This document shows, one piece after another, positions 21,353 through 25,128 of a stretch of 64,000 bases of DNA (position 1 is its first letter; each line of letters starts with the position of its first letter). The notes beneath the pieces are model-generated. The model worked only from the letters and a program-made list of their open reading frames with translations. It was not told where the DNA came from and did not search any database. This DNA comes from Corticibacter populi (GTDB taxonomy: Bacteria; Pseudomonadota; Gammaproteobacteria; Burkholderiales; Burkholderiaceae_C): contig NZ_SGWR01000004.1 in the NCBI RefSeq assembly GCF_004217315.1, positions 268,718 to 332,717 on the forward strand. Direction: 5' to 3'. The position numbers were made by a program, and so were the translations under genes.

Positions 21353-22627
21353 TCAGGCCTGGGCGGCTTCGGTCTCCGGCTCGTCCCAGCCCAGCAGCAT
21401 GTCCTCGCGACCAGCCTCGCGGATGTGGGTGGGCAGGCCCATGCGGTTCATCAGGTTGATGAAGGGCTGGCAGGGCAGTTCCTCGACATTGACCATCCTG
21501 CGCACATCCCAGGTGCCCTGGGCGATCAGCAGCGCCGCGGCGGCGGCCGGCACGCCGGCGGTGTAGGAGATGCCCTGGCTGCCCACTTCGGCAAAGGCCT
21601 CGACGTGATCGGCGACGTTGTAGATGAAGATCTCGCGCGGCTGGCCGTTTTGGCTGCCCTTGACGAGGTTGCCGATGCAGGTCTTGCCCACGTAGCCCGG
21701 CGCCAGCGAGGCGGGGTCGGGCAGCACTGCCTTGACGAGCTGCAGCGGCACGACTTCCTGGCCGTTGTCCAGGCGCACCGGTTTCTCCGAGAGCAGGCCG
21801 ATGTTGCGCAGCACGTTGAAGACGTTGATGTAGTGCTCGCCAAAGCCCATCCAGAAGCGGATGTTGGGCACGTCGAGGTGCTGCGAGAGCGAGTGCAGCT
21901 CGTCGTGGCCGGTCAGGTAGGCGGTCTGCGTGCCGACCACCGGCAGCTCGTCGGTGCGCTGGACCTCGAACATCCTGTTGGATTTCCACTGGCCATCCTG
22001 CCAGGACCAGACCTGGCCGGTGAACTCGCGGAAGTTGATCTCCGGGTTGAAATTGGTGGCGAAGTAGCGCCCGTGGCTGCCGGCGTTGATGTCGATGATG
22101 TCGATGGAGTCGACCTTGTCGAAGTACTCCTGCACGGCCAGCGCGGCATAAGCGTTGACGACGCCGGGGTCGAAGCCGCAGCCGAGGATGGCGGTCACGC
22201 CCTGTTCGGCGCAGCGGCCCTTGCGCTTCCACTCGTGGTTGGCGTACCAGGGGGGCGCCTCGCAGATCTTGTCCGCATCTTCGTGGATGGCGGTGTCGAT
22301 GTAGGCGGCGCCGGTGGCGATGCAGGCTTCCAGCACCGACATGTTGACGAAGGCGTGGCCGAGGTTGATGACGATCTGGCTGCCGGTCTGCTCGATCAGC
22401 CGCTGCGCCGCGGCCGTGTCCATGGCGTCGAGCTGGTGGGCCTTGAGCACACCCCTGGGGTTCTGCAGCGAGCCCTTTTCATGGATGCTGTCGATGATGG
22501 CCAGGCACTTCTTGATGTTGCGCGAGGCGATGTGGATGTCGCCCAGCAGGGCGTTGTGCTGCGCGCACTTATGTGCCGCTACCTGCCCAACCCCACCAGC
22601 CCCGATGATCAATACGTTTTTCTTCAT
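21353..22627 (-). CDS. Carboxynorspermidine/carboxyspermidine synthase (saccharopine dehydrogenase family)
   Basis: NADPH-dependent enzyme of 424 residues that condenses aspartate semialdehyde with putrescine (or diaminopropane) to give carboxyspermidine (or carboxynorspermidine). The N terminus is a Rossmann fold (VLIIGAGGVGQVAAHK), and the rest shows the Lys1-like family (ILGCGFDPGVVNAYAAL; DIIDINAGSHGRYFATNF; RFWMGFGEHYINVFNVL). The functional call over true saccharopine dehydrogenase rests on the nspC gene 69 bp upstream. I start at 22627 (MKKNVLII), with GGAGG 11 bases upstream; an in-frame ATG at 22651 is less likely. Confidence 0.92.
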   Translation of the reverse strand: MKKNVLIIGAGGVGQVAAHKCAQHNALLGDIHIASRNIKKCLAIIDSIHEKGSLQNPRGVLKAHQLDAMDTAAAQRLIEQTGSQIVINLGHAFVNMSVLEACIATGAAYIDTAIHEDADKICEAPPWYANHEWKRKGRCAEQGVTAILGCGFDPGVVNAYAALAVQEYFDKVDSIDIIDINAGSHGRYFATNFNPEINFREFTGQVWSWQDGQWKSNRMFEVQRTDELPVVGTQTAYLTGHDELHSLSQHLDVPNIRFWMGFGEHYINVFNVLRNIGLLSEKPVRLDNGQEVVPLQLVKAVLPDPASLAPGYVGKTCIGNLVKGSQNGQPREIFIYNVADHVEAFAEVGSQGISYTAGVPAAAAALLIAQGTWDVRRMVNVEELPCQPFINLMNRMGLPTHIREAGREDMLLGWDEPETEAAQA

Positions 22628-22696
22628 TTCGCACAAAACCTCCATTGACAAGATGCCGTCCGTGGACGGCGGACAATCCTGCTGCCGGGTGTGGCA

Positions 22697-23821
22697 TCAG
22701 GACAGACTGCCGACGTAGTCGTCGTAACCGAAGGCGCGCACCACTTCCTCGCGGCCATCGAGGCGCCGGACCACGATGGCGGGCATGTCGACGCCGTTGA
22801 ACCAGTTCTTCTTGACCATGGTGTAGCCGGCCGCATCCTCGATGGAGAGGCGGTCGCCCACCTGCAGCGGTCGCGTGAAGCGGAAGGTGCCGAACAGGTC
22901 TCCGGCCAGACAGGTCTTGCCGCCGACGATGGTCTCGTGCTCGCCCGTGTTGGGTTCGATGCGGGCGCTGTAGTCGTAGATCAGCAGATCCAGCATGTGC
23001 GCCTCGATGGAGCTGTCGACCACCGCCAGCGGCTTGCCGTTGAAGCCCACGTCCAGCACCGTCACTTCCAGCGTTGCCGCGCCGGCCACCGAGGCTTCGC
23101 CGGGTTCGAGGTACACCTGCACGCCGTGCCGCCCGGCAAACCTCCGCAGGCGCTCTGCCAGTTGCTCCAGCGGGTAGCCGGGTTCGCTGAAATGGATGCC
23201 GCCACCCAGGCTGATCCATTGCACCTGGGCGAGCAGATGGCCAAAGCGTTGTTCGATGTGGCCGAGCATCTCGTCGAAATGCTCGAAGCGCCTGTTCTCG
23301 CAGTTGTTGTGGAACATCAGGCCCGAGAGCTGGCCGATGACGGCGGCGATCTTGTCCGGATCGCTCTCGCCCAGGCGGCTGTTGGGGCGGGCCGGGTCGG
23401 CCAGCAGGTAGGGCGAATTGCTCACGCCCGGGTTGACGCGCAAGCCCACTGGTTTGCCGGCGGCGCGGGCCTTGTCGCCAAAGCGCTGCAGCTGCGCCAG
23501 CGAATTGAAGATGATCTTGTCACCGTGCGTCAGCACCGCGTCGATCTCATGGTCGGCCCAGGCCACGCTGTAGGCGTGGGTCTCGCCGCCGAACTTCTCC
23601 CGGCCCAGCCGCACCTCGTTCAGCGATGACGAGGTGCTGCCGTCCAGGTATTGCCGCATCAGCGGGAATACCGACCAGGTTGCAAAGCACTTGAGCGCCA
23701 GCAGTGCCTTCGCGCCCGAGAGCGTGCGCAGCCGCGCAATGCGCTGCATGTTGACCAGCAGCTTTTGCTCGTCGATCAGGTAATACGGTGTTTGCAGGGG
23801 GACGGCGGGAGAACGGTTCAA
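22697..23821 (-). CDS. nspC: Carboxynorspermidine/carboxyspermidine decarboxylase
   Basis: PLP-dependent alanine racemase-fold decarboxylase of 374 residues. It removes CO2 from carboxyspermidine to give spermidine. Features include TPYYLIDEQKLLVNMQRI at the N terminus, the PLP lysine in LLALKCFATW, GLMFHNNCENRRFEHF, WISLGGGIHF, YLEPGEASV, and the second active-site loop KTCLAGDLFGTFRF. With the downstream synthase this is the S-adenosylmethionine-independent spermidine route. It probably starts transcription about 450 bp upstream, behind a leader ORF at 24067-24174. Confidence 0.95.
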   Translation of the reverse strand: MNRSPAVPLQTPYYLIDEQKLLVNMQRIARLRTLSGAKALLALKCFATWSVFPLMRQYLDGSTSSSLNEVRLGREKFGGETHAYSVAWADHEIDAVLTHGDKIIFNSLAQLQRFGDKARAAGKPVGLRVNPGVSNSPYLLADPARPNSRLGESDPDKIAAVIGQLSGLMFHNNCENRRFEHFDEMLGHIEQRFGHLLAQVQWISLGGGIHFSEPGYPLEQLAERLRRFAGRHGVQVYLEPGEASVAGAATLEVTVLDVGFNGKPLAVVDSSIEAHMLDLLIYDYSARIEPNTGEHETIVGGKTCLAGDLFGTFRFTRPLQVGDRLSIEDAAGYTMVKKNWFNGVDMPAIVVRRLDGREEVVRAFGYDDYVGSLS

Positions 23822-24066
23822 TGCAGTGGCTCCGTGGCGATGCGGGGAGAGTGACGGTCGGGGTTGAACAAAGAACCCATGCTTCCCGGCAGTGGCTGGC
23901 TGGGCTTGCGCCGGGTGCTTGGTGGGAGAAAACCTGCGCTGCCCAGCGGGTCAGCGCATCGGAGAGGCGGGGGCGTTGGGGCCGGTCGGCTGGATCGGTG
24001 CGGCCGATGGCCGCAAATGACCGCGACGGGCCGCGCGTGCGTCGGCCGTTCGCCGGCAGACGGCGA
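23822..24066. other. Untranslated leader between small ORF and nspC
   Basis: Between the stop of the small ORF and nspC, the minus-strand RNA has a GCGGCC-ATC-GGCCGC hairpin (about 24000-24014). Two C-rich, G-poor stretches follow, such as AACGCCCCCGCCTCTCC and CTCCCACCAAGCACCC. No T-tract terminator is visible. The composition is compatible with Rho-dependent attenuation, but that is inference. Confidence 0.4.
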
Positions 24067-24174
24067 TTACCAGATGATCTGGGCCCTGCTGAAGGCCCGG
24101 CAGCCGCGAATGACGTGGTGCGCCAGCGTGTCCTGGCGCTCCCAGCGGTAGGAGGAGTTCAAGGCAAAAATCAT
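24067..24174 (-). CDS. Probable 35-residue leader peptide of the spermidine operon
   Basis: A 35-codon ORF on the same strand as nspC begins MIFALNSSYRWERQ and ends RAFSRAQIIW, with TAA at 24069-24067. Thirty-two of 35 codons end in G or C, as in the genes around it, although the peptide itself is rich in residues unusual for random GC-rich sequence (Ile, Phe, Asn, Tyr, Trp, His). A weak GAGG lies 13 bases upstream, and a -10-like TACAAT about 100 bases upstream. It ends 245 bp before nspC. The arrangement resembles in concept the ornithine-sensing leader speFL, with which I claim no homology. It may instead be a small independent protein. Confidence 0.5.
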   Translation of the reverse strand: MIFALNSSYRWERQDTLAHHVIRGCRAFSRAQIIW

Positions 24175-24270
24175 GGCGATTCACCGACCTCGTGAAGAGA
24201 AACAGGGGAGTGACCAACCAGATGCTGCACGGGCGCTATCGCTGGCAGCTTATTTTGGATTGAGGGAGCG

Positions 24271-24276
24271 ATTGTA
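24271..24276 (-). promoter_or_regulatory. -10-like element upstream of the spermidine leader ORF
   Basis: On the minus strand GCTACAAT contains a good -10 hexamer (TACAAT). No convincing -35 is visible at 16-18 bases. Transcription from here would give a leader of about 90 bases before the small ORF and about 440 before nspC. Confidence 0.4.
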
Positions 24277-24366
24277 GCAGCCCTGATTCCCGGCGCCTCT
24301 ATCGCCCGCGATCGCTCGCCTTCACCCGCGCGGCGTATGCGGTGGCGCAACTGGTGGGAGGGGATG

Positions 24367-25020
24367 TCAGCGCCACAGGCTGGCCGCCAGCAGTGCCGCC
24401 ACGACCCACATCATCAGGGCGACCAGGCCATCGAGCCACAGCCAGGCCCGGCTGCCTTGCAGGCGGCGGCCCAGCCACCAGCCGGCCAGGCCCAGCAGGC
24501 TGAACCAGACCGCCGAGCCGGCAATCGCCCCCCAGCCGAACACGCCGGCCATTTGCCCGTAGGCGAGCGAGGCCGTGCCGATCAGCGCGGCGGTGTCCAG
24601 CCAGGCGTGGGGGTTGAGCCAGGAAAACGCCAGCGCATGGCCGACGGCTTGCCTCCGCGTGTAATGTGCCGGCTGCGCAGGTGCTCCTGCTCCTCCTGCC
24701 GCGGCGACTGGCGACGTAAGGCCCGCGCGCCAATGCGATGCAAAGCGCTTGGCGGCTCGCCAGCCATAGGCCAGCAGGAACAGCGTGCCCGCGCCGATCA
24801 GCGCGCCGTGCAGCCTCTCCGGCAGTGGCCCGAGGTGGCCCAGGCCGTGCACGCCGATCAGGATCATGGCCATGTCGCCCAGCGCGCAGATCAGCACCGT
24901 CAGCAGCAGGTGCTGGCGGCCAAGGCCCATGCGCAGCACATGGGCATTCTGCGGGCCGATGGCCATGATCAGCGACAGGCTCAGCAGCATGCCGGAGAGG
25001 AAGACGGGGAGCATGTTCAT
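24367..25020 (-). CDS. LysE/ArgO-family amino acid exporter
   Basis: Inner-membrane exporter of 217 residues with about six hydrophobic segments. The family hallmark near the N terminus is GMLLSLSLIMAIGPQNAHVL, and GHALAFSWLNPHAWLDT carries the conserved NPxA-type motif. An Ala/Gly/Pro-rich loop sits in the middle. It is divergent from an ArgP-like regulator 132 bp away, the arrangement of argO-argP or lysE-lysG, so arginine or lysine export is likely. The ATG at 25020 is preferred over an upstream in-frame ATG at 25125 that lies in the promoter region. Confidence 0.93.
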   Translation of the reverse strand: MNMLPVFLSGMLLSLSLIMAIGPQNAHVLRMGLGRQHLLLTVLICALGDMAMILIGVHGLGHLGPLPERLHGALIGAGTLFLLAYGWRAAKRFASHWRAGLTSPVAAAGGAGAPAQPAHYTRRQAVGHALAFSWLNPHAWLDTAALIGTASLAYGQMAGVFGWGAIAGSAVWFSLLGLAGWWLGRRLQGSRAWLWLDGLVALMMWVVAALLAASLWR

Positions 25021-25099
25021 GGCACACACGGAGGCTGAAGGAGGCGAAAGCCGAAGCGGCAGGGCGGAACGCTGCGGATTGTCGTGACTCCCGGCGTTT

Positions 25100-25128
25100 G
25101 TTGAAGATAATTCAATAAAAATCAATTG
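25100..25128. promoter_or_regulatory. Candidate LysR-type operator between exporter and regulator
   Basis: TTGAA-N5-TTCAA (25100-25114), an inverted repeat with T-N11-A spacing, and the palindrome TCAATTGA (25121-25128) lie in the AT-rich centre of the divergent intergenic region. This is the normal position and form for an ArgP/LysG-type binding site controlling the exporter and the regulator's own gene. Confidence 0.5.

Follow-up and report, generated by a model that had tools for sequence, protein, structure and literature searches.

A conserved short open reading frame upstream of nspC is a probable leader peptide of the carboxyspermidine operon in the Lampropedia/Vandammella group

Short leader open reading frames (ORFs) have been described ahead of several genes. 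In Salmonella, the 34-amino-acid leader ORF orf34, encoding SpeFL, lies near the transcript start of speF within a long leader, and its translation prevents Rho-dependent termination before speF; a hairpin downstream of its stop codon is discussed in the same source (PMC6386406). SpeFL senses L-ornithine and blocks release mediated by RF1, and in TnaC, the leader of tryptophanase, the C-terminal end of the short peptide blocks release at the stop codon (both as described in PMC8429421). The leader peptide MdtU of Escherichia coli mdtJI has 33 amino acids, is encoded in a long 5′ UTR and is most strongly conserved at its C-terminus, and spermidine relieves Rho-dependent premature termination in this leader (PMC7815308). 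A further group, the E. coli polyamine modulon (including oppA, soxR, and gshA), responds to polyamines at translation by way of a distant Shine-Dalgarno sequence or a UUG start, with the Shine-Dalgarno sequence of soxR and emrR located 10 nt from the start codon (PMC4405209).

The locus described here lies in a window of 64,000 nucleotides, the whole stretch of DNA that was analyzed. Its order on the minus strand is a -10-like TACAAT, a leader of about 90 nt, a 35-codon ORF, a 245-nt spacer, nspC, and a dehydrogenase gene, with the following features:

24271..24276, minus strand: -10-like element TACAAT, identified by pattern match.
24214..24221, minus strand: CTGGTTGG box preceding the ORF (7/10 genomes share TGGTTGG, and 6 share CTGGTTGG).
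24188..24191, minus strand: Shine-Dalgarno-like GAGG, unusually far (13 nt by spacing count) from the leader ATG.
24067..24174, minus strand: leader ORF, 35 codons plus TAA, MIFALNSSYRWERQDTLAHHVIRGCRAFSRAQIIW, with homologs in 10/10 genomes of the genus.
24159..24174, minus strand: start region ATG-[AG][CT]-TTTTGCCTTGA, from sequence comparison of 10 genomes.
24067..24084, minus strand: C-terminal codons AQIIW plus TAA ([LQ]I[IV]W-TAA in 10/10 genomes, with synonymous changes).
24050..24066, minus strand: predicted hairpin right after the stop codon, TCGCCG-TCTGC-CGGCGA, from a fold.
23822..24066, minus strand: C-rich spacer of 245 nt, a candidate Rho-loading region by base composition.
22697..23821, minus strand: nspC, predicted carboxynorspermidine/carboxyspermidine decarboxylase with a TTG start (TIGR01047, E 9.8e-116).
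21353..22651, minus strand: predicted carboxynorspermidine/carboxyspermidine dehydrogenase, the next gene of the operon (NF043000, E 3.9e-132).

An earlier note on this DNA had placed a 35-codon ORF between a -10-like element and nspC on the same strand, which is correct for 24174-24067 of the minus strand; the interval it gave, 24067-24276, comprises the ORF plus the region up to TACAAT (24276-24271). The note's count of 32 GC-ending codons was reproduced (32/35 codons have G or C last), as was its 245-base C-rich stretch after the ORF (245 nt, C 0.42 and G 0.27). It gave the end of the peptide as Arg-Gln-Ile-Ile-Trp, which is accurate for the IIW before TAA and misses an alanine, the peptide ending in Arg-Ala-Gln-Ile-Ile-Trp (RAQIIW). 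The 245 nt extend from the stop codon of the leader to the TTG at 23821, the sole ATG, GTG, or TTG in the nspC frame, and TTG is likewise the nearest start codon of this frame in 10/10 genomes of the genus. The short ORF thus lies between the -10-like box and the first structural gene on the same strand, with the promoter judged by this box alone; a consensus scan of 23750-24420 returned no full sigma-70 promoter. On the same strand 5′ of TACAAT (24367-25125) is a presumably LysE-like gene.

Both enzymes match their family models very strongly, yet below the curated cut-offs, NspC with 386 bits against TIGR01047 (cut-off 409) and the dehydrogenase with 441 bits against NF043000 (cut-off 800), and both products contain Pfam domains above threshold. 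In the genome of the window, members of the SpeE (PF01564) and SpeD (PF02675) families were not found (0/1 for each) by searches that were positive in 11 and 8 of 14 control genomes, respectively. Therefore, nspC and the adjacent dehydrogenase gene are the only spermidine route seen in this genome. Spermidine, putrescine, and 2-hydroxyputrescine have been reported for Lampropedia cohaerens (PMC5015223).

The layout resembles that of SpeFL in having a short leader ORF before a polyamine gene, a long leader and a hairpin after the stop codon, which is predicted in this case. Unlike SpeFL, which precedes an inducible ornithine decarboxylase gene, the leader precedes nspC of the carboxyspermidine pathway in 10/10 genomes, and the peptides have no sequence similarity (hhalign of 7/10 peptides: probability 0.4%, 1 aligned column). 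Nor was anti-RBS pairing with the leader ORF found, the mean pairing of the nspC ribosome-binding site being at most 0.09 in 10 single-sequence partition functions whose starts were assumed by eye. The earlier note had proposed a probable leader peptide controlling the spermidine genes and cited SpeFL as a known case; selection on the ORF and its tie to nspC support this in part, and the lack of similarity and the near absence of RBS pairing in predicted folds speak against a close analog of SpeFL. MdtU shares the short leader ORF, the long 5′ leader and a conserved C-terminus before a polyamine gene, but it too lacks sequence similarity (hhalign probability 0.2%, 1 aligned column), and mdtJI encodes an exporter whereas nspC serves biosynthesis. 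The terminal Trp is only a superficial parallel to TnaC, which has L-Trp as its ligand and UGA as its stop codon where the leader has UAA. By analogy, the GAGG 10-13 nt from the leader ATG (7/10 genomes) and the TTG start of nspC (10/10) may recall the polyamine modulon; polyamines stimulate those mRNAs, however, whereas negative feedback would be the expectation for a biosynthetic operon.

The leader ORF accompanies nspC in every genome of the genus that was compared. Ten out of ten genomes of the window's GTDB genus have nspC with the leader ORF 5′ of it, among them Lampropedia hyalina, L. aestuarii, L. puyangensis, two strains of Vandammella animalimorsus, and a Comamonadaceae MAG. The N-terminal motif of the dehydrogenase follows 3′ of nspC in each, and the longest ORFs 5′ of the leader vary by lineage while the leader stays with nspC. 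In two genomes (loci L048 and L049) the gene divergent from the leader presumably resembles trpE. A peptide query against 40 relatives gave stop-free matches in six other genomes of the genus (E 2.1e-9 to 0.0028). The central part of the peptide has diverged so far in G001, G004, and G009 that a profile search detects the leader weakly or not at all; in G004 and G009 it returned chance matches only, and their leaders came to light when the sequence ahead of nspC was read, which means that conservation is underestimated if only profile matches are counted. None of the weak matches that were read (L008-L013, L016, L017, L019, L031-L033, L036, L037, L039, and L040) lies before nspC, and leader searches of viral contigs gave none that was confirmed. 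A Pfam zf-H2C2 match of the peptide (E 0.00078, 20.2 bits against a threshold of 25) was dismissed as chance.

Across the ten genomes the leaders have 33, 34 (eight genomes), or 35 codons, differ in length by whole-codon indels only and end in TAA without exception. The N-terminal M-x-FAL and the C-terminal [LQ]-I-[IV]-W are kept in all of them, and the middle of the peptide drifts; the C-terminal codons show synonymous changes (GTC/GTT/GTG and CTG/TTA). The earlier note had suggested looking for the frame in relatives, where it is kept in 10/10 with synonymous substitutions and no frame-disrupting indels. These comparisons all come from one genus-level clade, in which the ten genomes represent 9 distinct ORFs and 8 distinct peptides.

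The pattern of substitution indicates selection on the peptide. A codon-substitution score based on amino-acid similarity was +345 for the ORF frame versus -253 to -630 for the other five frames (8 genomes), a sum over related pairs that penalizes stops and whose magnitude is not a probability. Column shuffles of the alignment, which preserve relatedness and likewise penalize stops, gave p 0.002-0.010 for the same number of genomes. Both tests used 8/10 genomes, omitting the near-identical G008 and G009, and were run after deletion of the additional codon in the window's ORF and of one gapped codon column. Reading the start in a different frame, which gives RHDFCL, was rejected (frame score -312, containing stops). 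Third codon positions vary in 17/17 of the middle codons. Mean pairwise nucleotide identity among 7 genomes was 0.64 for the ORF versus 0.35 for shuffled controls, 0.55 versus 0.37 for the 80 nt 5′ of it, and 0.39 versus 0.39 for the spacer, where gap columns were fewer (110 versus 163). Sequence is thus preserved in the ORF and immediately before it but not in the spacer. Reading frames of such a length are common in GC-rich DNA (108 of at least 25 amino acids overlap 20-30 kb of the window), as expected if an ordinary untranslated leader happened to contain one by chance, but conservation in 10/10 genomes, indels of whole codons only and the frame test contradict this explanation, which we regard as highly improbable. 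Judged by these sequence comparisons, the leader ORF is under selection and always 5′ of nspC, with its two ends as the conserved parts.

Selection on a peptide would also be expected of a small trans-acting protein, with the decarboxylase or a transporter as conceivable targets, whose gene is simply co-transcribed with nspC. Against such a role, the middle of the peptide drifts, 207-362 nt separate the stop codon from a TPYY-type motif near the NspC N-terminus in 10/10 genomes, and no further match at E < 0.01 was found in any of the ten genomes. We consider a trans-acting protein quite unlikely.

Conservation also extends to the region 5′ of the ORF. A TANAAT element occurs within 220 nt 5′ of the ORF in 10/10 genomes, at -96 to -135 in nine and at -182 in G006. 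The TGGTTGG box is absent in G005, G007, and G008. At the Vandammella-type loci L051, L052, and L054, its place is taken by a GC hairpin of 8 bp with a T-rich stretch behind it, which resembles a terminator and lies 3′ of the -10-like box and 5′ of the leader ORF (folds were made for two of the loci). The leader ATG follows the GAGG at a distance of 13 nt in five genomes and of 10 nt in two, and an intact GAGG is missing in 3. The start region ATG-[AG][CT]-TTTTGCCTTGA is invariant in 10/10 genomes outside the two codon-2 positions, third positions included (window, L048-L057). Its invariance exceeds what the peptide requires, which makes a further constraint on the RNA likely at the start codon. 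The start region could possibly pair with the GAGG region, and a start-region hairpin (GGTTGA with TTGACC, plus variants), which varies little among the genomes, seems plausible on inspection and in part of the folds.

These observations bear on whether the conserved unit is instead a structured 5′ RNA, a riboswitch or similar, around the leader start, with the ORF incidental or a mere platform. Invariant third positions at the start, the conservation of the preceding 80 nt beyond shuffles and the possible self-pairing of the 5′ region in single-sequence folds all agree with such an RNA, as does the distinct element, predicted to form a hairpin, that other Burkholderiales carry ahead of nspC. 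However, codons 6-34 give a frame-specific signal by themselves (+348 in the ORF frame versus -258 to -690 in the other frames), and the C-terminal codons are retained through synonymous changes. In addition, Rfam returned no match above threshold for 23500-24700 of the window or for the ten loci, each having one sub-threshold unrelated match, and a known riboswitch or leader RNA was rejected on the same covariance models. A structured RNA in place of a translated leader is rather unlikely in our estimate. An attenuation model nevertheless does not explain the additional RNA constraint suggested by the unvarying start region and by conservation of the 80 nt before the ORF.

Downstream of the ORF, composition and predicted folding are the relevant features. 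The spacer together with the last 30 nt of the ORF has C 0.42 and G 0.27 in the window, an excess of C over G equaled by 0.3% of 1000 random 275-mers from both strands of the window, and C exceeds G after the ORF in 10/10 genomes. A rut-like score did not stand out from dinucleotide-shuffled versions of these regions, of which a fraction of 0.06 to 0.91 scored as high. The score of the window's leader was attained by 9.7% of random pieces of the window, and G004 and G009 scored higher on the opposite strand (34 versus 28 windows). Therefore, it is base composition that points to Rho. An intrinsic terminator was not found within 23750-24420. The post-stop hairpin appears in folds of the window, of G004 and G009, and of G005, G007, and G008; in G004 and G009 a long C/U-rich tract lies 3′ of it. 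A leader that works by arrest or attenuation would fit both the conserved end of the peptide and the C-rich spacer.

Taken together, in the Lampropedia/Vandammella group the ORF probably encodes a leader peptide that is translated and acts in cis on the nspC operon. Conservation of the two ends of a short ORF, a predicted hairpin past the stop codon, a C-rich spacer, and a polyamine operon point to translation-coupled attenuation, perhaps Rho-dependent, through which the leader ORF probably controls nspC. Control of nspC by the leader is likely, and arrest, Rho, and the ligand are parts of the mechanism that we infer. Ribosomes would translate the leader ORF as the transcript emerges; on arriving at the conserved I-[IV]-W-UAA end, or on pausing there, they may cover or reorganize the RNA past the stop codon, often a hairpin followed by C-rich RNA. 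Transcription would then either end early within the spacer, most probably through Rho, or continue into nspC and the dehydrogenase gene. A polyamine or a precursor, such as putrescine or spermidine, would most likely be the signal, and it may act either on ribosomes during translation of the leader or on initiation, given the unusual position of the Shine-Dalgarno sequence. Feed-forward by putrescine and feedback by spermidine would both be sensible directions of control. A more specific proposal, which we put forward tentatively and hold to be doubtful, is a nascent-peptide polyamine sensor in which [LQ]-I-[IV]-W-UAA would pause ribosomes on putrescine or spermidine, tuned by the distant Shine-Dalgarno sequence and the UUG-started nspC. 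Such a sensor would have arisen independently of SpeFL and MdtU, in parallel with a distinct, putatively structured RNA that precedes nspC elsewhere in Burkholderiales.

Leaders of nspC differ elsewhere in Burkholderiales, where the gene is rare (11/399 sampled genomes of the family and 18/399 of the order). Of the 24 nspC loci outside the genus, 19 were read (L058-L061 and L063-L077), and none of these showed a leader of the genus type (type A); a type A leader protein query had 0 matches in 60 relatives, none of which is known to hold the leader. One type A profile match, in G433, is antisense to another, presumably hisZ-like gene and was rejected as chance. By eye, an ATG occupies the position expected for the nspC start in 15 of the 19 loci, versus TTG as the nearest start codon in 10/10 genomes of the genus. 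Four loci (L061, L069, L073, and L074) have another near-invariant element before nspC, GAGGACGCC-ATG followed by GACGCCCTSTTCCAATTGGGGAT, which spans three Burkholderiales families and contains an ORF reading M[ST]xDALFQLG... Its ATG lies 368-441 nt upstream of the nspC profile match, and its core pattern occurs in 3/399 genomes of the order, always before nspC, the fourth case coming from the family sample. The four fold alike into a TTCC-AA-TTGGG...CCCAA-AC-GGAA hairpin, with the second loop differing in one, and the ORF frame scores 30 versus 43 for one antisense frame. Rfam has no match for this element, which is a candidate structured RNA tied to nspC. At L071 and L075-L077, from one other family, a near-consensus TTGACA...TATA promoter was seen by eye before nspC, with a C-rich leader of 177-337 nt (C 0.39-0.46, G 0.24-0.29) and no common ORF by eye; L058-L060 have no such leader before nspC. 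Since different leader elements precede nspC in several families, leader-level control of this gene may be common in Burkholderiales, through differing means.

Among the matches listed in a search of openly licensed literature titles, there was no leader peptide, uORF, or RNA switch for nspC or the carboxyspermidine pathway. We know of no earlier leader peptide for the alternative spermidine route, and this one, if confirmed, would be the first. If confirmed, it would also add a further polyamine-linked leader peptide, in a genome where only the alternative spermidine route was seen, and the leader would offer a defined element with which to ask how the ribosome senses a polyamine. For these bacteria, the leader ORF is most likely a translated switch that helps to set spermidine output.
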